Of a stretch of DNA of 64,000 nucleotides, positions 47,009 through 64,000 are shown piece by piece. The position numbers were made by a program, and so were the translations under genes. The notes beneath the pieces are model-generated. The model ran no database searches. It saw nothing but the letters and a program-made list of their open reading frames with translations, and was not told the DNA's origin. The first letter of the stretch is position 1; the number at the start of each line of letters is the position of its first letter. Source of the stretch: Wenzhouxiangella marina (lineage in GTDB: Bacteria; Pseudomonadota; Gammaproteobacteria; Xanthomonadales; Wenzhouxiangellaceae); NCBI RefSeq assembly GCF_001187785.1, contig NZ_CP012154.1, positions 2,474,501 to 2,538,500 on the forward strand. The letters run 5' to 3'.

Positions 47009-48763
47009 TCACTGGTTCAGCAGGGGTACGGTGGAAACACGGCGCATCCGGAAGGTGCCGGAGACGAAGACCGTCGATCGGTGCAGACCGGAGATCGACT
47101 CGCTGTAGGCGCCTGCCAGTTCCTCATCCCCGTACTCCGGCGGGTTGAGCTGCTCCGGATCGTTCAGGGAAAAGAAGAATTCGAATTCCCGCGTGACCTC
47201 GAAGGCTTCCTCACGGAAATTGAGGAACTGGGGATCGAGGTTGTCGTGGTCCGGGTGATAGCGGTGCAGGAACGGGTTGGTCGGGAACTCCGGATCGAGC
47301 ACGATCGAGCCGGTCAGCAGTCCGTTGGCCCCGAAGGCACCGGCCAGCTCGAGCTCGGGTCCCTCGAAGTCGAAGCCGGCCGTGCTGACCCGCAGCCCGA
47401 CCGGTTCCCCACCGCGAAGCACCGCCCCCGAGAAATTGGGAATCAGTTCCTCACGCGTGACCAGCACATTCCGTCCGGGCGTCTCCGTGATGAAGAAGCC
47501 CGGATTGTCAGGATCCGGGATCTCGGTCCCGTCCTGCCACATCTGGATCACTTCCTTGAGCATCCGTGTCGTTCCCGAGGCATCGACATGCATCAGCACG
47601 CGAAGATTGAATTCGCGCCCCACGGGCGTCGGCATCACCCCGCCCTGCTGGGCCTGGCTGACGGCATCGATGGAAATCACCCCCAACCACAGGCCCGCGT
47701 AACGAGGATCGGCGTTGCGCAGCTGCCCATCCTCGGAGCGACGCACGGTGGCGGTCGCCGTCTGCACGATGGGTTGAGAGACGGCTGCCGAGACTTCCAG
47801 CAATCGGCGGGCCCCGAAGCCATTGGTGATCTCGATGATGTGCGATGCATCGTTGGCCAGCAGATCGGCTCGACGCACCCCGAGGCGCAGGGTGATTGCC
47901 TCATCCACCGGCAAGGCCACCGTGTATTCCCTTGGCAGCACCGGCCAGAAAATGCTGCCGGTGGCATCGTCGACCTGCCGGACGGCCAGCGGCACCGGCA
48001 CGTCGGAATCGAGCTGTCGAAGCGTGATCTGATTGCCCAGACCGCTGGCATTGCGAAGGGTGAAACCGTCCCGGGCCAGGGTGCCACCGAAGTCGAGGCG
48101 CCCGTCGAATTCCAGCTCCACTTCCAGCGGGCCCTGATAGGTGGACCGCCCACGGGTAAAGACCCAGTAGGCCTCCCCGCTCTGGATGCGCTCGGAAAAC
48201 GGCTGGGCGATCTCGACCCACTCCCCGTTCTCGCTCAGGCGGAAGATGCTCTGGTCGGCGTGGGCCTCGGAACCCGCGAACCAGTTGGCAAAGGTCGGCG
48301 GATTGTCCGGGTCCACGGGGAAACCGGTGAACTGGAAATCATCGCTGCGCCAGCGCATGCGGCGAACCAGCGGCCGCCCCTCGATACGGAGTTCGACCGG
48401 CTGGCTGCCCAGCAGACGAACCAGGTAGGGCTGATTGGCGCTGATCGTGTAGAGATTGGTCAGGACGCTTTCGGGGCGCTCGGGCGGAAAGTAGCCATAC
48501 CAGCCATCGATCGTCAGCAGTTCCTCGTCCGGATCCTGGATGAAGGCGACCGGTTGATCGTCGGGCAGCCAGCGCCAGACGCTGGCCACGGGAATGCCGG
48601 CGAAGACCTGTTCGATGGAGTCGACCTCGGGCTGGACTTCGACGTAGATGGCATTCCAGCCCGGCTGAAGCTGGATGACCTGCTCGTAGGTCGAGGCCTT
48701 TGCGCCGAACATGAACAGCGCGCAGACCGTGAACAGAACGTATCGGATCGGGTTCGTCTTCAT
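47009..48763 (-). CDS. Secreted protein of unknown function, operon member
   Basis: A 584-residue protein; the start at 48763 has GGAGAA nine bases upstream and a signal peptide (YVLFTVCALFMFGAKA). It opens with IQLQPGWNAIYVEVQP, a pattern seen at the start of proteins that end in short beta domains, and shows further beta-rich stretches (AYWVFTRGRSTYQGPLEVEL, GIPVASVWRW, FRMRRVSTV). There are no cysteines in the mature part, and no C-terminal IFxxRF tail. I do not recognise a family. Its place between the PpiC lipoprotein (4 bases upstream) and the 2,816-residue protein suggests that it belongs to the same complex or its assembly path. Confidence 0.75.
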   Translation of the reverse strand: MKTNPIRYVLFTVCALFMFGAKASTYEQVIQLQPGWNAIYVEVQPEVDSIEQVFAGIPVASVWRWLPDDQPVAFIQDPDEELLTIDGWYGYFPPERPESVLTNLYTISANQPYLVRLLGSQPVELRIEGRPLVRRMRWRSDDFQFTGFPVDPDNPPTFANWFAGSEAHADQSIFRLSENGEWVEIAQPFSERIQSGEAYWVFTRGRSTYQGPLEVELEFDGRLDFGGTLARDGFTLRNASGLGNQITLRQLDSDVPVPLAVRQVDDATGSIFWPVLPREYTVALPVDEAITLRLGVRRADLLANDASHIIEITNGFGARRLLEVSAAVSQPIVQTATATVRRSEDGQLRNADPRYAGLWLGVISIDAVSQAQQGGVMPTPVGREFNLRVLMHVDASGTTRMLKEVIQMWQDGTEIPDPDNPGFFITETPGRNVLVTREELIPNFSGAVLRGGEPVGLRVSTAGFDFEGPELELAGAFGANGLLTGSIVLDPEFPTNPFLHRYHPDHDNLDPQFLNFREEAFEVTREFEFFFSLNDPEQLNPPEYGDEELAGAYSESISGLHRSTVFVSGTFRMRRVSTVPLLNQ

Positions 48764-48767
48764 TGAA

Positions 48768-49775
48768 TCAATTCTCCGCTGTGCCGGGGTCATCGTCGCC
48801 TTGAACTCCGCCTGGCAACGGCGGGGGACGACGTTCCTCGGGCGCAGCTTCACGCTCGGGAGGAATGGAAGGAGGAATCGGGACGGTGTCGAGCAGCTCG
48901 GCGTTGACATCGATCGTCACCTCGCCGCGAAGCTGTTCGAGAAGGCCGTTTTCAAGGTCTTCGGCCCGCTGCCGGGTCAAGCGATGGCGAATGCCCTCCC
49001 GGACCTGCGCCAGGGGCTGTTGACGGGCGGGATCGAGATCGACCAGGCGCACCAGCCAGTAGGCCTCCGGCGATTCGATCACCGGGCTGATCTCACCCGG
49101 TCGAGCAAGCGCGAAACCCGCATCGAGCACCGCCTCGGGCAGACGGTAGTGCGCCTGTTCGCGGTCGACCAACCAGCCGACCACCCCGCCCTGATAGCGG
49201 CTGCCACGGTCGTCCGAGTACTCGACGGCCACGGCCCCGAAATGGGCCACGTCGTCGGGCAGCTGTAGGGCCGCCTCGCGCGCCGCCTCGGCCTGTTCAC
49301 GCTGTGCCTGATCGGCCTCGGCGTCCGGACGCGCCGAGCGGCTCAGTCGGATGACCGCGATCTGGCGACGCTCCGGCCGGCCGAACTGATCGGCATTGGC
49401 CTCGTAGTAGCTCAGCACCTCGGCATCACTGATCGTCACCGAGGCCAGCGCCTCGTCCAGGCGCTTCTCGCGGAGACGCTGGATCAGCATGCGGTGATAC
49501 AGATCGCGAAACTCGGGCTCCTCGGGAATGCCCGCCCGCACGGCCGCATCGAGCTGCACCTGCTGATCGACCAGATAGTCCAGCAGTTCCTGCCGCTTCT
49601 CGGCCCGCTCGTAATAGCCGGGCCGGAGTGCCGCGCGACGCTCGAGCTCGTGCTGGTACTGGTCAAGGGTGATGACCGAATCACCGACACGGGCCAGCAC
49701 CTCGGGCTGCGGCGATTCACTGCTGCAGGCGGTCAGGGCGGCAGCAATCGACAGGCTGAGCATCAGGCGCTTCAT
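48768..49775 (-). CDS. PpiC/SurA-type peptidyl-prolyl isomerase lipoprotein
   Basis: A 335-residue folding factor. The leader ends LTAC with Ser at +2, predicting an outer-membrane lipoprotein facing the periplasm. An N-terminal helical chaperone part (EVLARVGDSVITLDQYQHEL, LLDYLVDQQVQLDAAVRAG) precedes a parvulin-type domain (about residues 135-255) containing YQGGVVGWLV and ARPGEISPVIESPEAYWLVRL, and a proline-rich acidic tail. This resembles SurA and the EpsD-type isomerases. The start overlaps the stop of the giant DUF11 gene by 4 bases and the 584-residue protein follows after 4 bases. It is therefore likely to serve the giant proteins of this operon; that is inference. Confidence 0.88.
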   Translation of the reverse strand: MKRLMLSLSIAAALTACSSESPQPEVLARVGDSVITLDQYQHELERRAALRPGYYERAEKRQELLDYLVDQQVQLDAAVRAGIPEEPEFRDLYHRMLIQRLREKRLDEALASVTISDAEVLSYYEANADQFGRPERRQIAVIRLSRSARPDAEADQAQREQAEAAREAALQLPDDVAHFGAVAVEYSDDRGSRYQGGVVGWLVDREQAHYRLPEAVLDAGFALARPGEISPVIESPEAYWLVRLVDLDPARQQPLAQVREGIRHRLTRQRAEDLENGLLEQLRGEVTIDVNAELLDTVPIPPSIPPEREAAPEERRPPPLPGGVQGDDDPGTAEN

Positions 49776-52700
49776 GCCTCGGGCTCCTCCTGACTGCTGG
49801 CCGGCGTCTCGAAGCGATCACTGAAGATCACGTCCAGATCCAGCACAGTGCTCGCCGAGGCTTCGTTGTTGCCCGGATCCGGATCCTCCGCACCCTGCAC
49901 GACCTGCACGGTCACCGTGTTGACCACGGTTTCCTGCGGGCCGGACGGCGTGGCCGGATCGATCTGGGCCTGTACGTCGATGATCAGACCGCTGGCCGGC
50001 GGCAACTGCAGGCTCAGATCGATGTCACCGACACCGCTGGCCTCGGGGCAGACCGCATCACCCACCGCGGTACAGGTCCAGCTGACGTTGATCAGTTCGG
50101 CCGGCATGAGGTCCACAAGCCGGGCTTCGATCGACCCGGACGGCCCGGCATTGTCGAGCACGATCTGATAGTTGACCGGATCACCCGGCAGGGCCGAGCC
50201 GAGGTCCACGGTCTTGCTGACCGACAGATCGGCCTCCGAGGACACGACGGCCACTTCGGCGCTGTCCTCGTTATTGGCAACGTCCGGGTCATTGACCTCG
50301 CTGCCGTTCAGGGTGGCCTGAGCTCCGTTGCTCAGCACCTGCGGCACCGCCAGGAACGGATCCACCTGCGCCTCGATCTCGAAACGCCAGCCACCACCAC
50401 TCGGCAGGGGGCCCGTCTCCATGATGTCGCCCATCCCGTTCGGACTCGGACAAACGGCGCCTCCGGAGGCTGTACAGGTCCACTGGGGATCGAGGAATTC
50501 CGGCGCGATGGAATCGACGATCGAGACCGAAGGCGCGTCACTCGGGCCGAGGTTGGTCACGTCGACGACGAACAGGGCCATCTCGCCGGCGGTCAACTGC
50601 AGCACATCGGCGAACTTGCCGACCACGATGTCGGCGACCGCGCTGACGGTGGCCGTGACGGTGCTGGAGTTGTTGTCTCCATCCGGATCGCTGGCATCGC
50701 CTGGCTCGGTGATCGTCGCCGTGTTGCTCAGCTGACCGAGGAAATCGCTGGCGATCTGGCCGTCGATGATGACCAGCAGACGCTCGCCGGCGACCACATC
50801 GACCGTTTCATCCAGGCTGCCCGTGCCCGAAGACGGGCACTGACTCTGGCCGGTCCCGACCGGAATGACCTGACAGGTCCAGTCCGAGGCCACGATGGAG
50901 GCCGGAAGGAGGTCTTCGAGCCGCGCCGCGAAGGCATGGCTGGGCCCGTCGTTGGTCACTTCGAGCACGAATCGAACCAGACCGCCACCGATCAGGGAAC
51001 TCGCCTCTCCATCGATCGTCTTGTCGACGCCGACATCGGTCACGACGGTGATCGGACCGGAATCCGTATCGCTCTGGTCCATCGGGGTCAGGGCGCCGGT
51101 GGCCGGCGGCTCGACGACCGTCGCGGTATTCTCCAGGATCCCGCGGGCGCCCGGATGGACCAGGGCCTCGACCTGATAGCTCAGGGAACCGCCCGCGGCC
51201 AGATCGACCGTGTCGAACAGTTCGTCGGCGAGACTGCTGTCCAGGCCACAGTAGCCTTCGGCCTGGCGGCGCAGGTTCAGCAGGGTCCCGGAGCCCTCTT
51301 CCGTCGTCAGCAGGACACTGCCTCCATCCGGCGCGATCGCCATCCGGCGTGGACCGGTCAGGCCGGCACCGTCCAGAACCTCGATTTCACGCAGCTCACC
51401 ACCCACCCAATCGCGGGCGAACACGACGATGTTCGAATCGTTCCGAGCGCCCACCAGGACGTTCTCGCCGTCGGGACTGACGGCCACCGAATTGGCGCCA
51501 TCGAGACCCTGGACGCCCTCGACGCCGTCGCGATACTGCTCGACGAAGCTGATCAGCCCGGTCTGCGGATCACGTGCGAACAAGGTCACCGAATCCTCCG
51601 ACAGGCTGGCCGCGTAGAGCTGGCGCCCCTTCGGACTGATGGCCAGGGACTGGACGAGGCCCAGGCCGACGACGCTGACGCCATTCTGGATCTGCCCGTT
51701 GGCCAGGCGCTGATCCCAGGCCAGATTGCCGGACTCGTCGCGACGGAAGATGCCGATGCTGTTGTTCTGCGTCGCGGCGGCATAGACGTAGGCGCCATCC
51801 GGACTGACGACCAGATCGCTGACGCCGTCCATCGCATTGACCGGCAGCCCGTTCAGGCCGCTGCCCCAGCTTTCCAGCCAGTTCAGTCGGCCGGTCACGG
51901 CCTGGCGGCCGAACACGGTCAGCGCGTTCGAGCTCCGTGCCGCGACGAACAGACGTTCGCCATCGGGCGCAAAGCGGATTCGCACCGGCTCGTCGAGATC
52001 GAAGACGGTCCCGGTCTGCCCTTCCGGCCCCTCGCCGTTGAACAGCGCTTCGACGAACACGAGGCTGCCGGCATCGGCATCCAGGGCGAACACCACCAGG
52101 GCATCGGCCTCGGCACTGGCCACCACGAGATGCGCCTGATCCGGACTGAAGGCCACATCGGCGGCGCCATCCAGGCCGATGACCGTGCCCACCTGGACAT
52201 CGTCCTCATCGAAGATCGGGTCGCCATCGCTGACCGCATCGACCGCGCTCAGGGCACCCGTGGACGGGTTCCGCTGATAGAGGATGACCGAGTCCCCGGC
52301 CTGACCGGTCGCGGCGGCCCAGAGTCCATCGGGGCTGAAGGACACCCCTCGGGCGGCCGCCAGCTCGGCTCCGCCGAAGCTCTGACTCGTGAACAGGTGG
52401 TCCTCACCACTGCAGACCCATTGCGCCGAACCCGACACCACACCCGGCGCCATCGGATTGGCGATCTCGCCCGGCAGCGCCGGCAGCGCATCGATGACAT
52501 CGACGCCCAACAGACTGCTGGGACCATGGTTGTTGATCACGATGTCCCAAACCACCGGCTCACCGGCCACGATCGGGTCGGTCTGCCGGGTCTTGATCAC
52601 CTCCAGGGCCGCCTCGGCGATGATGCCGATGCTCAGGCTGGCCACGTTGTTGCTCAGATCGGAATCCTCCCGAGCCAGCACCGGATCGATGCGGGCCTCG

Positions 52701-55700
52701 AGATCGACCGTGCCCCGGGCATTCGCCAGCACGCTGGTGCTGATGTCATAGAGCACTTCTCCACCGGCCTCGAGATCGACCTGGTCGAGCACCAGCACTT
52801 CCCCGGCACGACCGCAGATCGAGCCACCGAGCAGCTGCCAGACATCGACGTTGTCGAAGCCCGCACCGACGCTGTAGAGATGCCGGCCATCGCTCGATAC
52901 GCTCAGATGATGCCCCTGCCCCGGCGCGCTCGCTGCCGCACCATCGAAACGACCCAGGAACTGCAGATCGGCGCCTTCGAGGATGCGGAAGGCGGCCAGG
53001 CTTCGGCTGCCCTGCAGGTCATCGAGTCCGGACAGGTAGAGCTGCTGGCCATCGGCCGTCAGCACCAGCTCGGTCGCACCGACCAGACCGCCGATCGGCA
53101 GCGGCGGGACGCCCACGGCGTCTCCTTCGCGCAGAACACGGACCGGCAGGCTCTGTTCGGCCGAGGCGCGTTCGAACACGGCGATGGCCTGATCCAGGCC
53201 GCTCCGCCCGTAGGTGTACAGCCAGCGCTCGTCTTCGCTGAGCACCATGGAACGCACGCCCGAGAGCCCATCCACGATCAGGCTTTCTGCCCCGTTCTCG
53301 ATCACATCGCCCTGGACCAGGCTGCCCGCATAGCTGAGCTGACCGTTGCCGGCACGATCGAAGCGCACCAGCGCATCGGAGCCTGCGGAGGCGACCAGGA
53401 CCGTGGCATCGGCATCGGCCACCAGAAGATCGGCGGGGGCGTTCAGGTTTTCCACCCCAGCCTGACCGTCGCGCAGGAATTGCAGAAAGCTGAGTTCACC
53501 GGTACTGGCGTTGCGATCGAACACGGCGATGGCGTTGTCGAGCTGACCCGCCACATAGACCTGGGCCTCGGCCGAATCGAAGGCGAGGGCCACCGGGCCG
53601 CCCAGGCCATCGATGACACCGATGTTGTCACGCAGCACCTGGAGGAAGGTCAGCCGGCCCGTTGCCAGATCACGCTCGAAGACCGAAATCGCGTCGTCCT
53701 GATAGCCCAGAACGTAGAGGAAGCGGTCGTCCGAACTGACCGCCAGCTCGCGAGCGCCCGCCAGACCGTCGATCAGACGATCGCCGTCCGGGTCGGGCTC
53801 GATGCTGAGGTTCTCGATCAGCTGCTTGGGCGTCAGCTCACCGGTGAGGGTGTTGCGGTCATACACCGCCAGCACCGGCACGCTCGTGTCGCCGGTGACG
53901 TAGACATGACGACCATCGCGACTGATCGCGCTCGCTCGAGTGTCGGCCAGCACCTGGACCGGCGCCGGCTGCAGGGTCAGCGTACCCGGCTCACGATCCG
54001 CCTCGCAGACCCAGGCCGTCCGGCCCAGGGCCTCGGGCAGCCGATGCTCGACGCGGGCACCGGAGGCATCGCTCGGGCCGAGGTTGCGCACGCGCACCTG
54101 GTAGTCGAGATCGGCGCCCGCGACCAGGGCCGCGGGCAGGCCTTCGATCGAGACTTCCAGATTGCTGCTCGACCGAACGATGGTGTTGTCGTCCGTGGCC
54201 TCGGAGCTGGCAGGATCCAGATCCACCACACCGGCAGGCATGGTCGCCGATGCGCGGTTGACCACGAAGCCGGAGGCGTCGCTGCGCAGCTGTCCGGTGG
54301 CAAAGAAGCTCATCGTATCGCCCGCATCGAGGTCGACCAGCACATCGATGTTGCCGGTGCCCGTTCCCGGGCAGGAGCTTTCGGCGGAGCCGAAGGTACA
54401 GGTCCAGCTCACGGCATCGAAGTCGGCCGGGAAGATGTCGGTGACGCGTGCGTCGGCCACCCGGCTCGGTCCCTCATTGTGGATCTGGATGAGGTACTCC
54501 ACGGAAGCGCCGGGAACGGCACCACCGCCGCCCTGGATCACGGAGCCGGCGAAATCCATCAGACCGGACGACTCGTCCAGCGCCACGATGGCACCGGGCT
54601 CGCGGGATCCCGCATAGAAACGGTTGTCGCCAGGCAGGGCGAACAGGGCCGAGGCACCGACCAGACCGTCGACCACCACCGCCCCCCCGGGCGGGTTCTG
54701 GACTTCGCCTTCCTCGATCAGGCTGGAGAAGCTCAAAAGACCGGTGGCGGCATCGCGGCTCAGCAGGGCCACGGTGTTGTCCGTCGGCGAACTCGCTGCG
54801 ATGAAGGCCGCTCCGGCACCCACCGGCGTCAGATCGGACACTGCTGCCAGACCCTCGAAGCCGTTGCTGCCGTCGACCGCCGCTTCGAGGAAGCTCAGAC
54901 GACCGAAGTTGCTCTCCACCGCGCTGCTGACGCGGTCGAAGACGACCACCGCATTGTTCCCGGTGCCCGCCGCGTAGAGGAATTCACCGTCGGGCGACAC
55001 CAGGACCCGCGACACGTCCAGCAGCCCGACGACGTTGCCGAGGAGATTGCGACGGGACTGGATCCAGGTCAGACCACCGAATGCGCTTTCTTCCTCGTCG
55101 GCCTGGCGCCGGAAGGTCACCACGGCGTCACTGCCCTGGGCCGCCACATAGACATGGCGGCCATCCGGCGACATCGCCAGGTGAACCGGCGTCAGCAGAT
55201 CCTGCACGCCATCGGTGCCGTTCTGCACCGAGGCCTGCCAGCTCAACTCACCGAAGCCGGGCTCCCTTTCATCGTTCTGACGGCTGAACACGACCAGGGA
55301 ATTGGAATTGGCCGCGGCCACGTAGAGATGCCTTCCGTCGCTGTCCATGGCCATTGCCCTGGGCCCCGAAAGGCCGGAGACGCCGGCGTTGTTGTTGCGG
55401 TAGACCGCCAGCACCGACAGGCGCCCGGTGAAGGGTTCGCGCTCGAAGGCCACCAGGGCGCTATCGAGTGCCGAGCTGGCATAGACGTGACGACCATCGG
55501 GAGAGACGAGGACGTCATTCACGCCGTTGAGCTGAGACACGCCGTCTTCACCGCTGATCAGGGCTTCGACGAAGCGAAGCGGGTAGTCGCCGGTCGGCGA
55601 GCCGATCACCTCCTCGATCGCGAAGACGCCGATCCCGGGCTCGCCGGGTGCCGCCACGTACAGGTGGGAACCGAGCAGATCCGTGCCGTCAATCGCCGCC

Positions 55701-58700
55701 GCCCCGCTCAGGCCCCGGAACTCGGCCAGGCCGTCGGACTTGGTCACGACGAGATTGGCCGCGCGATCGAGGAAGCTCGCATCGGAGGCAGATTGGATCG
55801 TGGTGGTCCCGCCCTGCGTGAGGCTGACCTCGACCTCGTTGACCACGCAGTTCCGCTCGGGGTCGAGGGGCGCCGGGCAGACGGAGCCCAGGGTGCCCGC
55901 CGCGACCTCGACATCAAGGTCGATGATGATCTGACCCCCGGCCGCGATGTCGGCCAGCAGATCGACATCGCCGGTCCCTGCGTCGAGTTCGCAGCGCGAG
56001 AAGCCGGACAGTACGAAGCGGGTGATCGAATTGTCCAGCAGGGCCCCGGCCAGCAGTTCCGAGCCATTCGGACTCAGAGCCAGTGCCGACACGCCGGCCA
56101 GGCCGACTTCATCATCGCCATCCACGTAGCGGGTCCGGTAGCTGAGCCGGCCGGTCTCGCGGTCGCGGGCGAAGACGAGCAAGGCGTTGCGCCCGAAAGC
56201 GGAGAGATAGGCACTGCCACCGTCAGGGCTGATGAGCAGGTCGCGCGGACTGATCATCTCGCTGACGTCGCTGCGCTCGATGCGCTGCGCCACACCACTG
56301 AGCAGGCGCCCGAACTGCGCGCTGAGTGGATCGTTGTCGCGATTGAAGACGAGGATGCTCTCGTCATCGCGAGCCACGGCGTAGAGCTGCGCACCACCGG
56401 GGCCGAAGCGCAGCGCGGTCACACCCGCCAGGCCCGGCGTGGCTGGAGAAGAGCGCGTCTGGATCGGCGTCAGGCTGCCGTCGCCGTTGCGCTCGAACAC
56501 GGCGATCGACGCGGAATTGCTGCCCGCCGCATAGAGATGGTCGCCTTCCGGCCCCATGGTCAGATCGGACACCCCATCGAGCAGGACCGTGCCATCGGAC
56601 TGCAGGACCTGGGCCGGGGTCGGAACCAGATTGCCGGTGCCGACGATGCGATCGAAGACGTAGATGGCATTGCTGTTGGCCGCCGCCACGTAGACGTTCA
56701 GCCCATCGGCACTGACCACCACATCGGTGGGTTGGTCGAAGGCGGACAGACCGACCAGCCCATCGTCGATCGTCTGGACGATGCTCAGGGTCCCGAACGC
56801 CGGCGAACTGTCGTCGGTATTGACGTTGATCACCGAAATGCTGTTGTCGACCTGGCTGGCCAGATAGAGCTGGCTGCCCCCGAAGGCCGTCGCGATGGCG
56901 CGCGCGCCGCGCAAGCCGGAGACCGGATTGCCGGCACCATCGATCCCGCCCTCGACCAGGCTCAGGCCCGGCTCGGCGACCAGCTCACCGGAGACCGGAT
57001 CGATCGAGAAGACGGCCAGACCGTCACCCAGGACCCCGGCCACGTAGACCCGCTCGTCGAGAAGCGGATGCGGCGCCGGCGTCCACACGACCCCGGCGCT
57101 GCCGAGCAGACCCGCCTGATCGGTCATGGCTTCACTCAGGGTCTCCTGGCGATCGAGGAGGCCGGTGCCGACCGCCGTGCAGGTCCAAGCCGCCGAGGCC
57201 ACATCGAACTGCGAATTGGCCGACAGAAGATCGGTGATCCCGACGTTACGAGCATGGCTCGGTCCATCGTTGCCGATCGTGATCCGGTAGGACTGCTGTT
57301 CACCGGCCACGACGGACAGGCGGGAGTTGGTCTTCTCCACGACCAGGGCCGACGACGGGATCATCTCGGTGCTGTCCGAGGGGTCCGAGCTGTTGCCCGT
57401 GTTGTTGACGTCACTCGGGATGACCAGGGTCGCGAGGTTGTCCAGGAAACCCTCGGCGCCCGGATTGATCGTGCCCGTGATGGTGAAGCGCACGGTGCCA
57501 CCGGCGGCGATGAAGACCGGCTCGGACAGATTGCCACTGCCGGCCGCCGGGCAGCTGGAGCCGGAGCGACGCACGAAGGCCGTCACGCTCTGGCCACCAA
57601 GGGATGCGGCATAGATGTTCCGGCGCGCCCCGCGGGTCACCGCCAGGCCGTAGGGACGATCCAGGCCGATGACGCCACGCACCCCGAGCCGGCGCACTTC
57701 CAGGGGCGCCAGGCTGCCGAACAGCGCGCCGCCCGGACTGACGTTCCGGTCGAAGATCACCAGCGCATCGCCATCATCCGAGGCGACATAGACCCGGTCG
57801 TTGTCCGGATCGACGATGATGTCGCGCGGGCTGAGCAGGGCGTCGACGCCGTCCACGCCGTTGACGAGGCTCTGCTGGAAGCGGACCCGTCCCCGCAGAT
57901 CGGGCTGGGTCGGGTCGGTCAGGCGCTTCAGGACCGTGACCGCATCCGCATCCAGGGAGGTCACCAGCACGTGCTCGCTGCCCGCCACTTCACGGGACAC
58001 GGTGATGCCGGTCGGACTGGTCAGGACGGCGCCTTCCGTGCCGTCGAAGAAGCTCTGGCGATGCACCAGGGTATCGCCGACGCGGTCGAGCACGACCACG
58101 GCGTTGGACTGGCGTGCGGCCACGTAGAGCTGCTGGCCGTCGGTGGAAATCGCCAGCGCATTGGCGCCCAGCATCCCGATCACGCCATCGATGCCGTTGC
58201 GGGCCTCACCCACGAAGCTCAGGGTGCCGTTGAGCGCGTCGCGGGCGAAGATCGCCACGGCGTGGTCGAAGCGGCCGGCGACGTAGACATGCTCCCCACC
58301 GGGCGATATCTCGAGGGCCGCCGCGCCGGACAGACCGCTGATCGAGCCGCCGTTGGCGTAGCTGCCGATGAAACTCACGACCCCGGTGCCGGGATCCTGC
58401 CGGAAATGGGTGACCGCATTGGAGCGCTCGGCCGCCACGTAGATGTCGTTGTCGTAGACCTTGACGTCGAGCGCACCATCCAGACCCGTCACGCCGGCCT
58501 GATTGTTGCGCAGGACCTGGCGGAAGCGCAGATGACGACCCGGTTCGGTCGCGCCCGCATCCCGCTCCAGCACCACCAGGGCGCCTGACTGCGAGCTGGC
58601 AATCTGGCCGAAGGAGGCCGCGAAGACATAGAGCCCGTTCTCGCTGACCGCAGCAGCGCGTGCACCGAGCAAACCGGACGCCGTCGCGCCGAAGCCATCA

Positions 58701-61700
58701 TCTTCCCCATCGACCACGGCTTCGAGGAACCCGAAGGTCGGATCCGGCGCCCGCCGTGCGAACACGCCCAGCTGCCCGACGGAAGCCGCCGTGAACACCT
58801 GCTGACCGTCGCTGGACACGACGATGCCCTGCACGCCCTCGATGCCGCCTTCCACGGGCTGATCGGCCGGCGCACCGAGTTCGAGCTCCTGCATCGGTCG
58901 CAAGGTGCCGACGAAGGGCAGGCGGCGGAAGACCACCAGCCGGTCCACGGCCGCACCACTGACGATCAGATGCTCGCCATCCGGCGACACGGCCATGGCG
59001 GCCAGGCCAGCCAGGGAGTCGCCCGAAATCGGCGGGTCGATGCTGGCCGTCAGCGTGACCACCTCGGTCAGACCGAGCGCCCCGGTGTCCGCATCGCGGC
59101 CATAGACGCTGATCGACTCGTCGGCTGCACTGCCGACGTAGAGGGTCTGGCCGACGCCGTCCATGGTGGCCACATCGACCGTGGAGGGCAGCGCCACCAC
59201 GCTGTCGACTTCGAGATCACCATAGCCGAGCGCCGTGTCATCGTCATTGCGGGCCAGCACCGTGATCGTCGCACCACCGGAACCACCGGCCGCCGTATCG
59301 AGGAGCAGCGGCGTGCCCGGCGTGGCATCGTTGTACAGGCGGATGTCGTCGATCCACCAGCCCGGATTGCCGAGCCCGGTGCCCTCGCCCAGTCCGAAAC
59401 GGATCAGTACGCTCTCACCATCGGCCACCGCGCCGCTGAGATCGACTTCCACGTCGTTGAAGCTGCCGGTGGTCCAGCCCGGACTGTTCCGGCACCAGCC
59501 AGGCCGCCCGTTCAGCGGATTCTGTTCACCACCGTTCTGGTTCTCGGTGTAGCCGCCGGTCACGAAGACGCCGCCGGCATCGAGCACGTCCAGCCAGTTC
59601 TGGCCGCCATCGGTCGAGATCTCGAGCACGCCGGCGTCGTAGCAGGAGGTGGCCCAGTCGAGCGAATAGATGTGCTGGAAGCTCAGCCTGAGATCGGAGG
59701 CGTCGGCCACGTTGACGCCCTGTTCGAGCTGCAGCCACTTCAGGGCGATGCCCGGCGTGTTCGGCACGAAGTAGGAGCGCGTACCGACCGCGGCCCGCGT
59801 GTCGGTGGTCGACCAGTTGGGACCACTGAAGGCGGCCACCGGCCCGCGGCCCGTGACGTAGACGAAATCATCCTCGGGCGGAATGTCGACCGCCAGCGCC
59901 CCCCAGAGGGCGAAGGTCCCCTGCCCCAGCAGGGTCGGCGCGGAAATCCGGCCCTGGAAGCTCAGCACGCCCGTGCCCGGATCACGACGGAAGGTGGCCA
60001 CCGCGTGCTCCTCACGTGAGGCCACGTAGACGTGACTGCCATCCCGGCTGACCCGAACGGCCGTGGCCCCGCCGAGGCCAGATACGGGCGTGATCTGGTC
60101 ACCCGGCTGGTCGGAGCCGTTCAATCTGGCTTCCACGAAGCTCAGCTGTCCGAACTGCGGCGAACCGGCCAGGGCATCGCGACGGAAGACGACGACGGCA
60201 CCCGGAGACCCCGTCGCGACATAGATGTAGCGCTGATCCGGGCTCATGGCCATGCCGCGAGCATCGGCCAGGGCCTCCACCGTCAGGCCGGAATCGTCAT
60301 CGTCGTTGACCCCATCGACTTCAAGGTCGATCAGGGTCAATTCGCCGAAGTTCGGTCCCGGAATGATGTTTCTCTCATAGGCCGCCAGCGAGGCCGGCGA
60401 CGGCTCGGCACCCGGGGTGAACTCACCACCGGCACCCAGCATGTAGACGTGTCTGCCGTCTTCGGAGGTCAGAACGGCGACCGGCTCGACCAGGTCGGCG
60501 CCGAGCCCGTAGTGATTCTCGTAGCTCAGGTCCCCCGGCGTGGGGGTCGTCGCGTCGCAGGTCCAGGTCACGTTGTCCAGTTCGGGGGGCAGCAGATCCT
60601 GCACGATCACCGGCACGTCGTCCGGCCCCTCGCTCTGCAGGGTCACGATGAAGCTGACCTCTTCGCCAGGGGTCACGGAACTACCGGCCAGGATTTCCTT
60701 GCTGATATCCAGATCCGCCGTGGCCAGAAGTCGAACCAGCGCCGTGTCCGTATTGTTGGTCGGATCCGGGTCGGTCACCAGCGGGGGCACGCTGACGCTG
60801 GCTTCGTTCTCGACCGCCGCCGCACCGGGGTCGATCACGGGCACGAACATGGAGAACTGGGCCTCGGCTCCCGAGGCCAGGGCCATGGTCTGACTGATCG
60901 GCCCGCTCTGTCCAGTCAGATTCGTGGCCTGACAGGCGCCCAGGCCATAGCTGCAGCAGGACTGAGACAGGGCCTCACCGGCATCGGTGATCGTACACGA
61001 CCAGGACGAGGCCGCCGGATCGAAGACCAGGGGATCGAAGACGTCTTCCACCGTCAGACCGGCGGCCGCCGATGGACCGGAATTGCCCACGCGCACCCGG
61101 TACTCGATGACCGGCGTACCCGCCTGATCGGTCACACCGAGGCTCTCCTTGATCAGCCACAGATCGGTCTGGGCGTCGATGTTCACCGTGTGGGTGCTGC
61201 TCAGGTCCGCCGGATCGAAGGGAGAAATACCGGCCGGCATCGTCAACGTGGCGGTATTGCTCAGGCTGGCACCGGGCTCGGACGAGGGATGCAGGTCCCC
61301 GCGCAGCGTAAAGACCAGGCGCGAGTTGCTCGGCATGTCGACGCCGTGTCCGACGAGCGTTCCGGACGTCCAGCCGGTCGGCTGGATCTGACCGCACTGG
61401 CCCGGCGTGCCGTTGTGGGTGCAGCAGGCGTTGCCTTCGGCCTCGCACTGCCACTCGAAGCTCGTGCCGATGAATCCGGCGACATTGACACCGCCGAAGA
61501 CCGGCGGCTGGTCGCTGATCTCGAGGTCGACCAGGCCGCCGGGGCCGAGGTTCTCGATCTCGATGGTGTAGGCAAACTCGGTGCCCGGGATCGGGCGCTG
61601 GTCCGGCGCGGTCTTGGTCACGACCACTTCGGTGGCGTTGCGCACTTCGATCAGGGCGTTGTCGCTGATCGTGGCGCCATCCGCATCTTCCAGGGTCGCG

Positions 61701-64000
61701 ACGTTGTTCAGTTCGGTGATGCTCAGACCCGCATTCAGACCGGCATCGACCACCACGGTCAGTCGCTGGCCGGCCGGCACCGTGAGGGCGCGATCGACAA
61801 TATCACCGGTGTCCAGCTCGCCCGGACGGATCCCGTCGCACTGACCCGGTCCGGCCAGACGATAGGTGATCACCTTGCTTCGATCGGGCGCCACCACCCC
61901 ACTGACGTCCTGGGACGAAGCCGCCACATAGAGGGTTTCACCGGCGGAGTCGATCGCCAGGGCATTGGCCTGCATCGCATCGGCCAGCGGCTCGGAACGC
62001 TCGAACACCATGGCGCCGAGCTCATCCCGGGCAAAGCGGGACACGGCCTGATCGGTGGTCGCCGCCACGTAGAAGCTGTTGCCATCCGGTGCCACGACGA
62101 GGTCGGACACGCCATCGAGCAACCGAGCGGGCAGACTGGTGGCGCTGGTCGCCTCGAAGGTGCCCAGCAGGCCGGTGGCCGCGGTGAGGTCGAACACCAG
62201 CACTCGGCTGCCGCCACCCGCGTAGAGCTCATCGCCATCCGTGCCCACGGCCAGGGCCGCGAAGGGCACCGATTCGCCGCCGACCAGCGGCGCCGTCGAG
62301 GCCGTGGACAGCGGCGTCAGCGACCCGGTCGAGGCATTCACCGAAAACGCGACGATCGCATGGTCGTCCGGCGCCGCCGCGTAGAGATGGTTGCCGTTCG
62401 GAGACAGTGCAAGCCGCGTCACGCCACCCAGCAACACTGGATTGGCCGCCACCGCGTCGCGGCTGACGGTCGCCACTGCAGCGATCGCACCCGAGGCTGC
62501 GTCGAAGCTGTAGACGCGAATGCTGTCGGCGCCACTTTCGGCGACGTAGAGCACGTCACCTTGCGGATTGAAACGCAGGTCTTCGACCTCGTTGAGGTTG
62601 CTCGCCAGCGTGGTCGCCGTGCCCAGCGCTCCCGTGCTCGGGTTGATGGTCTGGCGCAGCAGTCGGCCGCTGCTGCCCTGCTCTGCCGTGACCAGCCAGG
62701 CGCCGCCGGGATGGACCGCCACGCTTCGGGGGGCCGTGGCATCCGTTGCGAAGGAGGCATAGGCCAACGCGCCGAAGGCGGCACTGCGAGCCGTGCTTCG
62801 ATCGAGCACTGCCACGGCATTGTCGAACTGGCCCGCCACGAACACGAACTCGCGGGACGGGCTGACCACCAGCTGCCGGCCTCCGCCGATGCCGGTCAAG
62901 GCCGCATCGTCGGAATCCAGTTCACTCAGGAAGAACGGCTGATTGGGGGATTCGCACTGCCAGCAAGGCACCGTCGCCGAGACCCCGCAGACATCCAGAC
63001 CGCCGCGCAGGTTGGCATCGAAGTCGTCACTCAGGAGCGCCCGGATATCACCGGTCAAGTCACTGGGACCGAAGTTGTCGATGGCGATCTCGTAGGTGAA
63101 GCTCTGGCCCGGCACCACGACCGCCTGGCTGGCGGTCTTGCTGATGGCCAGATCCCAGTCCGCCGCGATGGTCAGATCGAAGGGCGCATCGCTGTTGTTG
63201 GCGGCCGCGGGATCATGGGTGCTCGAGGACACGGTGGCGGTGCCGGATGCGATGTCGCCACTGGCCTGCCCCGGCGTGGGCGGGTTGCGGGGCAAGCGGG
63301 TGCTGACGGCGACGGATGCCGACGCGCCGGACGCCAGGCTGGCGCGCATGCACTCGAAGCTGCCCAGCAGCTGGTTGATCTGGCAGGTCCACCCGCTGCC
63401 ACTGACCGACTGCAGCAAGGAGCCTGCCGGAACGCTGTCGCTCAGGGTCACCGCCTGGGCCGTCGATGGGCCCGCATTGGCGATCGCCACGTTGTAGACG
63501 AAGACCGAGTCGGCATCCTGCGCGGCCACTGGTGCGGTCCGTGGCGTGACCGACAGGTCCGCGGACGGCTCCACGGTCACCTGCACCGCCCCACTGACAT
63601 TGTTGGCCGGCGTCGGCAGACTCTCGGCCGAGCTCACGGTGGCCTGGTTGCCGAGGGTGATGGCGGTTTCGACGGTCGGCGCGGTGATCTCGACGGTCAG
63701 CACCAGCGAGGTCGTGCCATTGTCCGGCGCCAGGCTCAGCGACGAGTTATAGCTGCAATCGAGCTGGCTGGAACTGGCCGGCGGCGTTGGATTCGCCGCG
63801 CAGCTCCAGTTGGGCGCGCCGGCCGTGATACTGATGCTGCCGAGCACGTTGGCGCGGTCGAAGACATCGCTGAGCTGGATGTTCGTTGCCGGCTGCGGGC
63901 CATGGTTCGTGATCGTGTAGGTGTAGCTGATCGGCTGGCCCGAATACGCGGTCGCGCTGCCCGCCGTCTTGGTGACGCGCAGATCGGCCTCGAGGAAGAC
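49772..64000 (-). CDS. Giant DUF11 / nested beta-propeller secreted protein, N-terminus outside window
   Basis: At least 4,742 residues; the frame is open across the window edge. The internal GTG at 63847 lies inside a DUF11 module and is not the start. I count at least 13 DUF11 modules, each with the LxVxK start, GPS turn, WxC motif, second Cys, GTG-type turn and NTATV strand. Seven modules are uninterrupted. Five are split between WxC and the second Cys by propellers of 371, 1,001, 395, 396 and 387 residues; one more (at about 55755-54175) is split after the VTKSDG strand. Each insert has exactly seven blades (the 1,001-residue one has 14 plus a MAM-like domain). The end is VIFSDRFETPASSQEEPEA. 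The stop overlaps the PpiC gene start. Presumably secreted or surface bound; function unknown. Confidence 0.9.
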   Translation of the reverse strand, partial: VFLEADLRVTKTAGSATAYSGQPISYTYTITNHGPQPATNIQLSDVFDRANVLGSISITAGAPNWSCAANPTPPASSSQLDCSYNSSLSLAPDNGTTSLVLTVEITAPTVETAITLGNQATVSSAESLPTPANNVSGAVQVTVEPSADLSVTPRTAPVAAQDADSVFVYNVAIANAGPSTAQAVTLSDSVPAGSLLQSVSGSGWTCQINQLLGSFECMRASLASGASASVAVSTRLPRNPPTPGQASGDIASGTATVSSSTHDPAAANNSDAPFDLTIAADWDLAISKTASQAVVVPGQSFTYEIAIDNFGPSDLTGDIRALLSDDFDANLRGGLDVCGVSATVPCWQCESPNQPFFLSELDSDDAALTGIGGGRQLVVSPSREFVFVAGQFDNAVAVLDRSTARSAAFGALAYASFATDATAPRSVAVHPGGAWLVTAEQGSSGRLLRQTINPSTGALGTATTLASNLNEVEDLRFNPQGDVLYVAESGADSIRVYSFDAASGAIAAVATVSRDAVAANPVLLGGVTRLALSPNGNHLYAAAPDDHAIVAFSVNASTGSLTPLSTASTAPLVGGESVPFAALAVGTDGDELYAGGGSRVLVFDLTAATGLLGTFEATSATSLPARLLDGVSDLVVAPDGNSFYVAATTDQAVSRFARDELGAMVFERSEPLADAMQANALAIDSAGETLYVAASSQDVSGVVAPDRSKVITYRLAGPGQCDGIRPGELDTGDIVDRALTVPAGQRLTVVVDAGLNAGLSITELNNVATLEDADGATISDNALIEVRNATEVVVTKTAPDQRPIPGTEFAYTIEIENLGPGGLVDLEISDQPPVFGGVNVAGFIGTSFEWQCEAEGNACCTHNGTPGQCGQIQPTGWTSGTLVGHGVDMPSNSRLVFTLRGDLHPSSEPGASLSNTATLTMPAGISPFDPADLSSTHTVNIDAQTDLWLIKESLGVTDQAGTPVIEYRVRVGNSGPSAAAGLTVEDVFDPLVFDPAASSWSCTITDAGEALSQSCCSYGLGACQATNLTGQSGPISQTMALASGAEAQFSMFVPVIDPGAAAVENEASVSVPPLVTDPDPTNNTDTALVRLLATADLDISKEILAGSSVTPGEEVSFIVTLQSEGPDDVPVIVQDLLPPELDNVTWTCDATTPTPGDLSYENHYGLGADLVEPVAVLTSEDGRHVYMLGAGGEFTPGAEPSPASLAAYERNIIPGPNFGELTLIDLEVDGVNDDDDSGLTVEALADARGMAMSPDQRYIYVATGSPGAVVVFRRDALAGSPQFGQLSFVEARLNGSDQPGDQITPVSGLGGATAVRVSRDGSHVYVASREEHAVATFRRDPGTGVLSFQGRISAPTLLGQGTFALWGALAVDIPPEDDFVYVTGRGPVAAFSGPNWSTTDTRAAVGTRSYFVPNTPGIALKWLQLEQGVNVADASDLRLSFQHIYSLDWATSCYDAGVLEISTDGGQNWLDVLDAGGVFVTGGYTENQNGGEQNPLNGRPGWCRNSPGWTTGSFNDVEVDLSGAVADGESVLIRFGLGEGTGLGNPGWWIDDIRLYNDATPGTPLLLDTAAGGSGGATITVLARNDDDTALGYGDLEVDSVVALPSTVDVATMDGVGQTLYVGSAADESISVYGRDADTGALGLTEVVTLTASIDPPISGDSLAGLAAMAVSPDGEHLIVSGAAVDRLVVFRRLPFVGTLRPMQELELGAPADQPVEGGIEGVQGIVVSSDGQQVFTAASVGQLGVFARRAPDPTFGFLEAVVDGEDDGFGATASGLLGARAAAVSENGLYVFAASFGQIASSQSGALVVLERDAGATEPGRHLRFRQVLRNNQAGVTGLDGALDVKVYDNDIYVAAERSNAVTHFRQDPGTGVVSFIGSYANGGSISGLSGAAALEISPGGEHVYVAGRFDHAVAIFARDALNGTLSFVGEARNGIDGVIGMLGANALAISTDGQQLYVAARQSNAVVVLDRVGDTLVHRQSFFDGTEGAVLTSPTGITVSREVAGSEHVLVTSLDADAVTVLKRLTDPTQPDLRGRVRFQQSLVNGVDGVDALLSPRDIIVDPDNDRVYVASDDGDALVIFDRNVSPGGALFGSLAPLEVRRLGVRGVIGLDRPYGLAVTRGARRNIYAASLGGQSVTAFVRRSGSSCPAAGSGNLSEPVFIAAGGTVRFTITGTINPGAEGFLDNLATLVIPSDVNNTGNSSDPSDSTEMIPSSALVVEKTNSRLSVVAGEQQSYRITIGNDGPSHARNVGITDLLSANSQFDVASAAWTCTAVGTGLLDRQETLSEAMTDQAGLLGSAGVVWTPAPHPLLDERVYVAGVLGDGLAVFSIDPVSGELVAEPGLSLVEGGIDGAGNPVSGLRGARAIATAFGGSQLYLASQVDNSISVINVNTDDSSPAFGTLSIVQTIDDGLVGLSAFDQPTDVVVSADGLNVYVAAANSNAIYVFDRIVGTGNLVPTPAQVLQSDGTVLLDGVSDLTMGPEGDHLYAAGSNSASIAVFERNGDGSLTPIQTRSSPATPGLAGVTALRFGPGGAQLYAVARDDESILVFNRDNDPLSAQFGRLLSGVAQRIERSDVSEMISPRDLLISPDGGSAYLSAFGRNALLVFARDRETGRLSYRTRYVDGDDEVGLAGVSALALSPNGSELLAGALLDNSITRFVLSGFSRCELDAGTGDVDLLADIAAGGQIIIDLDVEVAAGTLGSVCPAPLDPERNCVVNEVEVSLTQGGTTTIQSASDASFLDRAANLVVTKSDGLAEFRGLSGAAAIDGTDLLGSHLYVAAPGEPGIGVFAIEEVIGSPTGDYPLRFVEALISGEDGVSQLNGVNDVLVSPDGRHVYASSALDSALVAFEREPFTGRLSVLAVYRNNNAGVSGLSGPRAMAMDSDGRHLYVAAANSNSLVVFSRQNDEREPGFGELSWQASVQNGTDGVQDLLTPVHLAMSPDGRHVYVAAQGSDAVVTFRRQADEEESAFGGLTWIQSRRNLLGNVVGLLDVSRVLVSPDGEFLYAAGTGNNAVVVFDRVSSAVESNFGRLSFLEAAVDGSNGFEGLAAVSDLTPVGAGAAFIAASSPTDNTVALLSRDAATGLLSFSSLIEEGEVQNPPGGAVVVDGLVGASALFALPGDNRFYAGSREPGAIVALDESSGLMDFAGSVIQGGGGAVPGASVEYLIQIHNEGPSRVADARVTDIFPADFDAVSWTCTFGSAESSCPGTGTGNIDVLVDLDAGDTMSFFATGQLRSDASGFVVNRASATMPAGVVDLDPASSEATDDNTIVRSSSNLEVSIEGLPAALVAGADLDYQVRVRNLGPSDASGARVEHRLPEALGRTAWVCEADREPGTLTLQPAPVQVLADTRASAISRDGRHVYVTGDTSVPVLAVYDRNTLTGELTPKQLIENLSIEPDPDGDRLIDGLAGARELAVSSDDRFLYVLGYQDDAISVFERDLATGRLTFLQVLRDNIGVIDGLGGPVALAFDSAEAQVYVAGQLDNAIAVFDRNASTGELSFLQFLRDGQAGVENLNAPADLLVADADATVLVASAGSDALVRFDRAGNGQLSYAGSLVQGDVIENGAESLIVDGLSGVRSMVLSEDERWLYTYGRSGLDQAIAVFERASAEQSLPVRVLREGDAVGVPPLPIGGLVGATELVLTADGQQLYLSGLDDLQGSRSLAAFRILEGADLQFLGRFDGAAASAPGQGHHLSVSSDGRHLYSVGAGFDNVDVWQLLGGSICGRAGEVLVLDQVDLEAGGEVLYDISTSVLANARGTVDLEARIDPVLAREDSDLSNNVASLSIGIIAEAALEVIKTRQTDPIVAGEPVVWDIVINNHGPSSLLGVDVIDALPALPGEIANPMAPGVVSGSAQWVCSGEDHLFTSQSFGGAELAAARGVSFSPDGLWAAATGQAGDSVILYQRNPSTGALSAVDAVSDGDPIFDEDDVQVGTVIGLDGAADVAFSPDQAHLVVASAEADALVVFALDADAGSLVFVEALFNGEGPEGQTGTVFDLDEPVRIRFAPDGERLFVAARSSNALTVFGRQAVTGRLNWLESWGSGLNGLPVNAMDGVSDLVVSPDGAYVYAAATQNNSIGIFRRDESGNLAWDQRLANGQIQNGVSVVGLGLVQSLAISPKGRQLYAASLSEDSVTLFARDPQTGLISFVEQYRDGVEGVQGLDGANSVAVSPDGENVLVGARNDSNIVVFARDWVGGELREIEVLDGAGLTGPRRMAIAPDGGSVLLTTEEGSGTLLNLRRQAEGYCGLDSSLADELFDTVDLAAGGSLSYQVEALVHPGARGILENTATVVEPPATGALTPMDQSDTDSGPITVVTDVGVDKTIDGEASSLIGGGLVRFVLEVTNDGPSHAFAARLEDLLPASIVASDWTCQVIPVGTGQSQCPSSGTGSLDETVDVVAGERLLVIIDGQIASDFLGQLSNTATITEPGDASDPDGDNNSSTVTATVSAVADIVVGKFADVLQLTAGEMALFVVDVTNLGPSDAPSVSIVDSIAPEFLDPQWTCTASGGAVCPSPNGMGDIMETGPLPSGGGWRFEIEAQVDPFLAVPQVLSNGAQATLNGSEVNDPDVANNEDSAEVAVVSSEADLSVSKTVDLGSALPGDPVNYQIVLDNAGPSGSIEARLVDLMPAELINVSWTCTAVGDAVCPEASGVGDIDLSLQLPPASGLIIDVQAQIDPATPSGPQETVVNTVTVQVVQGAEDPDPGNNEASASTVLDLDVIFSDRFETPASSQEEPEA
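51251..52411 (-). repeat. Propeller F, inserted in the WVC loop of a DUF11 module
   Basis: 387 residues between WVC (52420-52412) and the second Cys (51250-51248), seven blades. The DUF11 module resumes with DTVDLAAGGSLSYQV and ENTATV. Confidence 0.8.
52817..54004 (-). repeat. Propeller E, inserted in the WVC loop of a DUF11 module
   Basis: 396 residues between WVC (54013-54005) and the second Cys (52816-52814), seven blades such as GGPVALAFDSAEAQVYVAG. The DUF11 module resumes with VLDQVDLEAGGEVLYDI. Confidence 0.8.
54525..55728 (-). repeat. Propeller D, inserted at a different DUF11 loop
   Basis: About 400 residues, seven blades, placed after the first strand (NLVVTKSDG) and before VPGASVEYLIQIHNEGPS of the same module. 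The WTC loop of this module is short (TFGSAESS), so only this site is occupied. Confidence 0.75.
55994..57178 (-). repeat. Propeller C, inserted in the WTC loop of a DUF11 module
   Basis: 395 residues between WTC (57187-57179) and the second Cys (55993-55991). Seven blades. The DUF11 module resumes with GTGDVDLLADIAAGG, then NEVEVSL. Confidence 0.8.
57554..60556 (-). repeat. Double propeller B (14 blades) in the WTC loop of a DUF11 module
   Basis: 1,001 residues between WTC (60565-60557) and the second Cys (57553-57551). Fourteen blades can be counted, twice seven. Blade 4 is interrupted by the MAM-like domain at 59275-59830. The DUF11 module resumes with PAAGSGNLSEPVFIAAGG. Confidence 0.8.
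59275..59830 (-). other. MAM-like domain inside blade 4 of propeller B
   Basis: About 185 residues from GPNWSTTD to GGSGGAT. It shares with the MAM-like domain at 45590-46122 the patterns VPNTxGIxLK, LRLSFQ, SCYDxxxLExSTxGG, SPGW, VEVDLSG and IDDI/V. Its flanks, FVYVTGRGPVAAF and ITVLARNDDD, join into an ordinary blade. Confidence 0.75.
61841..62953 (-). repeat. Propeller A, inserted in the WQC loop of a DUF11 module
   Basis: 371 residues between WQC (62962-62954) and the second Cys (61840-61838). Seven blades of the VSPxxxxVYVA...AVxxR type can be counted. The DUF11 module resumes after it with DTGDIVDRALTVPAGQ and NNVATL. Confidence 0.8.

Follow-up and report, generated by a model that had tools for sequence, protein, structure and literature searches.

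Pilus proteins of the RrgA/GBS104 type, known from Gram-positive bacteria, carry an adhesion insert of the vWA type, and the insert of GBS104 is itself a vWA domain. A nested seven-bladed propeller is known from prolyl oligopeptidase, in which it is inserted in the chain of another domain; there the host is an enzyme and the insertion is a single one. Large domains inserted in sandwich domains with isopeptide bonds were described for RrgA (CnaA-like), Spy0125 (CnaB-like) and GBS104-like_Ig (PMC12617251). The last of these (3TXA) is made of residues 137-211 and 587-717, with Lys188 before the gap and Asp597 and Asn692 after it, and the inserts which that report gives for isopeptide domains are vWFa, CnaB or TED domains (PMC12617251). 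The report also renamed DUF11 (PF01345) CLIPPER after the crystal structure 9IFR, a CnaA-like sandwich with an isopeptide bond between Lys715 and Asn806 and with Asp748 nearby; the Lys is in the first strand, the Asn in the penultimate strand and the Asp is catalytic. According to the same source, CLIPPER domains stand in tandem in the stalks of surface proteins and disulfides are also common in them, and work cited there indicates that CnaA-like domains partly unfold under tension (PMC12617251).

The window, i.e. the whole stretch of DNA analysed here, covers 64,000 nucleotides of Wenzhouxiangella marina (genome positions 2474501-2538500; the genome has 3,675,202 bases in a single contig). 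A minus-strand open frame at 49772-64000 continues past the edge of the window for a further ∼0.9 kb, up to an ATG at genome position 2539376. It encodes a giant protein of 5,034 aa, of which 4,742 codons lie within the window, and by eye its N-terminus resembles a signal peptide (...ALAALTGSVSAQ). Residues are numbered such that residue q corresponds to window position 64000-3(q-1). With profiles built from the giant protein itself we found 15 DUF11 N-halves and 15 C-halves; in addition to these 15 modules the protein has seven 7-bladed propellers. The features in the window are as follows.

49772-64000, minus strand: giant gene, the part in the window (open frame, translation).
63158-63997, minus strand: DUF11 modules 3 and 4, uninterrupted (self-built profiles).
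61622-63157, minus strand: DUF11 module 5, nested at the Cys loop (C349 at 62956, C721 at 61840; K288, D325, N766).
61841-62953, minus strand: propeller P1, seven blades, inside module 5; present in 4 of 24 aligned proteins.
60731-61639, minus strand: DUF11 modules 6 and 7, uninterrupted (cysteine positions, profiles).
57335-60733, minus strand: DUF11 module 8, nested at the Cys loop (C1148 at 60559, C2150 at 57553).
57554-60556, minus strand: tandem propellers P2 and P3 within module 8, together with 14 blades.
59315-59818, minus strand: jelly-roll-like domain within the fourth blade of P2, with NCBIfam matches to part of M36 peptidase models.
55760-57355, minus strand: DUF11 module 9, nested at the Cys loop (C2274 at 57181, C2670 at 55993).
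55994-57178, minus strand: propeller P4, seven blades, inside module 9.
54167-55759, minus strand: DUF11 module 10, nested at the A-B loop; K2754 before the propeller, D3188 and N3248 after it.
54530-55735, minus strand: propeller P5, seven blades, inside module 10.
52613-54169, minus strand: DUF11 module 11, nested at the Cys loop (C3332 at 54007, C3729 at 52816), without the isopeptide triad.
52817-54004, minus strand: propeller P6, seven blades, inside module 11.
51038-52615, minus strand: DUF11 module 12, nested at the Cys loop (C3863 at 52414, C4251 at 51250).
51251-52411, minus strand: propeller P7, seven blades, inside module 12.
49841-51046, minus strand: DUF11 modules 13-15, uninterrupted, then a C-terminal tail with IFSDRFE (cysteine positions, profiles).

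Very long open frames are also seen on the plus strand over the giant gene (50936-58588 and 60032-64000). We did not retain them as genes; they are most likely coding shadow, since it is the protein on the minus strand that relatives conserve.

The original prediction placed seven-bladed propellers inside DUF11 modules, always at the same disulfide loop. The observation is real and is partly confirmed, with corrections. The numbers of residues between the five pairs of cysteines (371, 1001, 395, 396 and 387) are exactly those claimed, and each module does resume after its insert, as DUF11 halves were found on both flanks of all five. The site is not always the disulfide loop, because module 10 holds a propeller after strand A while its own cysteines are uninterrupted. 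This sixth nested module (q2748-3278) was overlooked earlier; its insert, a seventh propeller (q2756-3157), is in the A-B loop in all 24 aligned proteins. The junctions read 'NLVVTKSDG', propeller, 'GGAVPGASVEYLIQIHNEGPS', and C3201 and C3210 are 8 residues apart. Uninterrupted cysteine pairs, said to be spaced by 7-11 residues, have a wider range (14, 10, 8, 11, 7 and 7 in modules 3, 4, 10, 13, 14 and 15); modules 6 and 7 contain several cysteines each.

The claim that every insert is a multiple of seven blades holds for counts made by eye at the motifs, with 7 blades in P1, 14 in P2+P3 and 7 each in P4, P5, P6 and P7, but automatic counts by HMM over the 24 proteins (two P7 being cut by contig ends) are inexact. 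The latter were 7, 7, 7 and 6 for P1 (four proteins); 14 in 16, 13 in 6 and 15 in 2 proteins for P2+P3; 8 in 22 and 7 in 2 for P4; 7 in 24 of 24 for P5; 6 in 13, 7 in 9, 8 in 1 and 5 in 1 for P6; and 7 in 11, 6 in 11 and 5 in 2 for P7. On inspection of four proteins, the eighth HMM match in P4 was a closing strand in three of them and the shortfall in P6 came from weak or merged blades. In the proteins inspected, the P4 insert starts with a match to the d-strand part of the blade profile in three of four (G015, G012, G087) and ends with a match to the first part of the profile in four of four; P6 of the same four proteins gave no separate closing-strand match to the blade profile. The 1,001-residue insert, made of two 7-bladed propellers, is longer because a non-propeller domain of ∼170 residues sits within blade 4 of the first, P2; the blade spacing at this domain is 241, while elsewhere in the seven propellers it is 47-75.

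We observed in the sequences the split modules, the blade numbers, the flanking cysteines, the split triad and the conservation of this plan in five families, each taken up below. The best explanation, and in our opinion a probable one, is that the gene encodes an exported, fibre-like giant in which six DUF11 modules are split by whole 7-bladed propellers.

The genes downstream of the giant gene are relevant to one alternative to this explanation.

48768-49775, minus strand: PpiC-type peptidyl-prolyl isomerase with a lipoprotein-like start (by eye).
47009-48910, minus strand: 633-aa protein.
38550-47012, minus strand: 2,820-aa protein with SBBP-type propeller repeats and a domain matching an M36 model.
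33652-38547, minus strand: 1,631-aa protein with Calx-beta and a lactonase-type propeller; the last gene of the cluster before yajC-secD-secF.

The PpiC gene overlaps the end of the giant gene by four bases, and the isomerase is possibly a dedicated foldase of the giant. The 633-aa protein had no Pfam or NCBIfam match. One M36 model of NCBIfam matches both the extra domain of P2 and the N-terminal, SBBP-propeller part of the 2,820-aa protein; a tblastn search with the latter also matched the giants of G036, G015 and G031a. It could be argued that the giant does not stand alone as a fibre and instead belongs to a large secreted complex together with its 633-, 2,820- and 1,631-aa neighbours, the propellers serving as assembly surfaces. 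In tblastn searches the PpiC homologue was downstream of the giant, and the 633-aa homologue next in line, in 21 of the 21 relatives with flanking sequence, which favours such a complex. Homologues of the 2,820- and 1,631-aa proteins were present in eight of the eight Wenzhouxiangellaceae relatives for which the downstream stretch was available; this also speaks for a complex, but the matches covered the whole length in three relatives only and were partial in five (from about residue 500; residues up to 772). We consider the complex a rather unlikely account, though the strongest of the alternatives.

Upstream of the giant gene we saw genes for a TPR kinase and an ECF sigma factor, then tgt and queA; tgt, queA, yajC, secD and secF are named by their sequences. 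The cluster (window 33079-49775) is located between tgt and yajC-secD-secF, parts of the protein export machinery; in G036 and G015, too, tgt is upstream of the giant and secD downstream of the cluster. The sigma factor and kinase genes between tgt and the giant gene (L012 5562-8848, minus strand) were seen in the window genome, and tblastn found no kinase or sigma homologue in any other fetched stretch, the upstream flanks there being mostly short.

The fibre-like giant would carry propellers of a well-known kind. Six pieces matched PF10282 with 74.8-122.6 bits against a cut-off of 21.7, and the best Foldseek matches of the propellers were 1ri6, 6nau and 1l0q, all 7-bladed. They are like the lactonase/YVTN propellers (PF10282; 1ri6, 6nau, 6igb, 1l0q) in fold, in the number of seven blades and in the YVTN-type repeats, but unlike them they are nested in another domain; the record title of 1l0q names tandem YVTN propeller and PKD domains. 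The propellers might then be lactonase-like enzymes spaced by DUF11 modules, making the giant an exported multi-enzyme array. The best sequence and fold matches do include gluconolactonases and 6-phosphogluconolactonases; however, the NCBIfam models of 6-phosphogluconolactonase score about a tenth of their cut-offs or less, and the same fold is found in a surface-layer protein (1l0q). We regard an enzyme array as improbable.

To examine the favoured reading, of single DUF11 domains split by propellers, we used ten proteins, which supplied 61 uninterrupted modules for an in-house profile and 54 nested modules to be searched with it. Modules nested at the Cys loop gave two matches, at profile positions ∼2-61 before the propeller and ∼61-130 after it. 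N-side matches that reach the break without overrun end at profile 57-64, the WxC motif being at 55-57, and C-side matches mostly begin at 54-65. The single match in module 10 begins at profile 16-18 after the propeller in 10 of 10 proteins. There were exceptions: two N-side matches of module 5 stop short at profile 37-38; four N-side matches overrun (module 9 of G015, module 11 of G004, module 12 of G004 and of G037); and four C-side matches start late, at 69, 69, 74 and 87, the last in a module 12. In module 5 the C-side matches start at 54-74; the cut module 12 of G031b shows an N-side match only.

Pfam's DUF11 model is less sensitive than the in-house profile and gives weak support for a domain in two parts. 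The PF01345 cut-off of 24.6 bits was exceeded in six of the seven DUF11 pieces of the giant gene; the piece with module 5 scored 24.1 bits, and 28.2 once its flanks were joined. With flanks joined, the match covers profile positions 1-110 in module 8, 2-107 in module 10, 3-114 in module 11 and 2-98 in module 12, and it is shorter in module 9 (only 2-85) and module 5 (only 1-35). A phmmer search with one uninterrupted module found no solved relative. The sequence evidence for one split domain thus appears strong for modules 8-12 and weaker for module 5. For the latter an empty site is the better support: six relatives from the same bacterial family lack a propeller in module 5, and there the profile matches the module in one continuous run.

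A structure prediction had been proposed as a check, and AlphaFold2 gave for the module 11 segment (17-row alignment; mean pLDDT 91.5, pTM 0.85) four sandwich strands before a 7-bladed propeller and four after it. The strands before the insert are 6-11 with 16-18, 22-31, 37-45 and 50-59 (Trp55 and Cys57 in the last), and those after Cys454 are 457-468, 473-482, 488-497 and 511-519. Within the insert there are 27 blade strands, preceded by a short one (66-68) and accompanied by an additional hairpin (291-300), which together we read as seven blades; the last blade of P6 is then made of three strands and strand 66-68 from the start of the insert, by our own grouping. For module 10 (5-row alignment; pLDDT 85.7, pTM 0.75) the model has strand 29-34 before the propeller, with a block pLDDT of only 70-71 for this strand A, then seven four-stranded blades and seven strands. 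Strands were grouped by us, and our reading that the flanks join comes from strand order together with pLDDT and pTM. Half-sandwiches are a prediction of the models on both sides of a propeller, and modules 10 and 11 are predicted to be the same fold split at two different loops, 1+7 versus 4+4, because the strand total is eight in both models.

An arrangement like beads on a string, in which complete DUF11 domains alternate with complete propellers and the split is an effect of alignment, could draw on the facts that the best Pfam DUF11 stretches before propellers are mostly N-halves and that the C-halves of modules 8 and 12, the only two tested alone, had no Pfam DUF11 match, but we rejected it as very improbable given that the in-house profile finds the missing half after Cys-loop propellers, starting near the point where the N-half stops, that the AlphaFold2 strand sets of modules 10 and 11 are those of half-sandwiches, and that module 5 is whole and uninterrupted in the six relatives.

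Rather than complete DUF11 domains on both sides of a propeller, we saw one profile shared between the flanks and model strands divided between them. The interpretation offered originally is accordingly supported in part: the propellers are closed domains held in one loop, with the Cys pair bracketing those of the Cys loop in every protein in which the module could be assessed; that this is a single constant loop did not hold.

Two kinds of cross-link can be predicted at the split modules. The Lys, Asp and Asn of each module were placed by motif, the assignment being ours. This KDN triad was seen in 12 of the 15 modules of the window protein (modules 1, 4 and 11 lack it) and is complete in 100 of 133 module instances from ten proteins. 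Lys and Asn were both present or both missing in 127 of these 133 instances (100 both, 27 neither, 6 mixed). Over 24 proteins and 11 modules, a count that omits modules 1, 2, 4 and 15, the two residues agree in 239 of 256 instances (196 both, 43 neither, 17 mixed), a weaker agreement than in the first ten proteins. In modules 5, 8, 9, 10 and 12 of the window protein the Lys is before the propeller and the Asn after it, the two being 478, 498, 494 and 488 residues apart in modules 5, 9, 10 and 12 and 1,087 in module 8.

Counted by nested module, the Cys pair and the complete triad were present in 4/4 and 4/4 proteins for module 5, in 24/24 and 10/24 for module 8 (triad missing in 14/24), in 24/24 and 24/24 for module 9, in 24/24 and 9/24 for module 11 (triad missing in 15/24) and in 22/22 and 21/22 for module 12 (two cut rows dropped); module 10 has no Cys pair around its insert and has the triad in 24/24. 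Thus all of the 122 assessable nested modules in the 24 proteins have a flanking Cys pair or a KDN triad, i.e. at least one predicted lock. No cysteine occurs within P4, P6 and P7 in 24 of 24 proteins (two P7 being cut), and P5 is free of cysteine in 23 and P2+P3 in 19 of the 24; as the propellers are mostly cysteine-free, the flanking cysteines have few other partners. We infer that both bonds, the disulfide and the Lys-Asn isopeptide, are formed and that they bridge the inserts at their base.

A search in the bacterial family gave some match in 19 of 43 genomes. To look further we used a junction profile (DUF11 N-half and first blade, 23 rows), counting a junction as full-length if the match extended from profile position 4 or earlier to 108 or later with E ≤ 1e-17. 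Full-length junctions were found in at least 28 of the 299 genomes of the order, in five families; among the matches listed we counted by eye 11 in family f1, 2 in f2, 3 in f5, 2 in f7 and 10 in f9. G091, from a further family, has a match to profile 1-112 with E 7e-15 and is outside these 28 or more; G030 has a partial junction match (profile 12-114). Outside the order no junction-spanning match was found in 369 genomes of the class and 398 of the phylum, the window genome excepted; these searches scored 11-12 candidates in each genome under a strict cut-off at 1e-15, so that absence outside the order is not proven.

We aligned 24 giant proteins, the one of the window included, ten from its family and fourteen others, which together represent five families of the order. 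G039, present as two fragments, was laid out for domains and left out of the alignments; three proteins are incomplete, as G031b and G048 run into contig ends and G015 loses 21 aa where the analysed stretch stops. Stop-to-stop open frames of the uncut giants are 4,400-5,065 aa long. The 24 proteins share a layout of 14 blades in module 8 and seven each in modules 9, 10 (A-B loop), 11 and 12, with HMM blade counts off by one or two in places; in G046 the N-half of module 12 was undetected. This layout recurs at identities to the window protein down to about 29%. Recurrence in 24 proteins suggests that it is more than chance, with the caution that these proteins are related by descent and the counts over them are therefore not independent events.

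P1 varies. Of the 24 proteins only G000, G031a, G036 and G015 have it, as has G039 outside the alignment. The extra domain in P2 is present in the same four proteins, while 20 of the 24 have no such domain and a blade of normal length at this place. Both forms of the giant gene, with and without P1, occur in one MAG (G031; L065 and L068). Most simply, the form seen in the window would be a later gain of P1 and of the extra P2 domain, because the other form is found in all five families and as the second gene in G031. Propellers, and a further domain inside one propeller, appear to have been added later to existing loops. The module 5 sites, full and empty, are natural material for domain-insertion studies.

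In a contrast set of six DUF11-only stretches, four contained arrays with no blades (G280, G271, G168, G409), and two (G207, G295) had no frame with the required three N-halves. L114 of G409, from the same class, is an 11,777-aa open frame with a long DUF11 array; no blades were seen in the 6,500 aa that were read. The contig L066 (3.3 kb), filed under a Planctomycetales MAG, carries a module 8 junction at 50% identity; it is probably misbinned, its isolate name indicating the same sample as a Wenzhouxiangella MAG. In a tblastn search of plasmids with module 11, one of 72,556 records had a match, partial, of propeller type and over 25% of the query.

With respect to described CLIPPER domains, the difference is that 6 of the 15 modules are split by whole propellers, with residues of the triad on both sides of the insert. 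As in RrgA and GBS104, a large domain appears to be nested in a CnaA-like domain with the Lys before and the Asn after it, module 10 being the example. Unlike in RrgA and GBS104, the inserts are propellers, a single protein has six modules that contain them, of which five use a different loop, one with a Cys pair, and the host is gammaproteobacterial. By this analogy the giant would work like a nested adhesin, yet it does not appear to be a member of the RrgA/GBS104 family, because its inserts are propellers and its relatives are gammaproteobacteria (NCBI places Wenzhouxiangellaceae in Gammaproteobacteria). The comparison with prolyl oligopeptidase is similar: the propeller is likewise nested, but here the host is a stalk module and the insertion is repeated. 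In the data of PMC13114784 insertions were consistently smaller than their hosts, whereas the inserts of ∼370-1,000 residues described here far exceed a host of ∼130 residues.

The original prediction knew of no described protein family with this plan. That stands for the repeated nesting of propellers in DUF11 modules, of which no description was found in the open-licence PMC literature searched; it does not stand for nesting in CnaA-like domains as such, which was already published. Within the literature searched, the repeated propeller nesting appears new, and known already is insertion into CnaA-like domains, as reported in PMC12617251.

How such a protein might work can be sketched from these features. 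The 15 DUF11 (CLIPPER, CnaA-like) sandwich modules would form a stalk, split five times at the D-E (WxC...C) loop and once at the A-B loop. A propeller that enters at the outer d strand and leaves after the c strand would have its ends adjacent, and with its ends side by side it can replace the tip of a hairpin; after that the half-modules may come together as a single sandwich. The insert would be short-circuited both by the Cys pair at its base and by the Lys-Asn bond that crosses the sandwich, and with the base so bridged tension along the stalk should bypass the propellers, which may stand out as side-mounted binding discs. Nesting between cross-link partners would in this way keep them out of the load path. 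The neighbouring PpiC lipoprotein may help to fold the giant after export, and the role could be attachment or that of a scaffold at the surface or in the matrix. The giant is most likely a surface fibre displaying propellers outside the load path, its function being deduced from this arrangement. We propose more tentatively a load-bypass fibre of a Gram-negative bacterium in which one or more predicted covalent bonds span every propeller, so that it would remain folded under pull.

If true, this would be a natural example of the same large domain nested repeatedly in covalently cross-linked stalk modules, with two kinds of cross-link able to substitute for each other, and it would give a testable rule for surface fibres that bear bulky binding domains under force. 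It would also be a caution for annotation, as DUF11-propeller proteins described as beads might in fact be nested.

Of the features of fibrillar adhesins, we saw the signal-peptide-like start (by eye) and the DUF11 array; no known sorting signal was identified in the giant protein. A motif like [IV]F.[DN].F[ED] was seen by eye near the C-terminus, in the last 45 residues, in 15 of 21 uncut giants, and from its sequence the IFSDRFE-type motif is a possible candidate for a sorting tag. G036 has IFRDRLE at its C-terminus, and five of the 21 uncut giants have no such motif in the last 45 residues. Variants of the motif include IFSDRFE, IFKDGFE and IFIDGFE, the copy of the window being located in 49772-49840.
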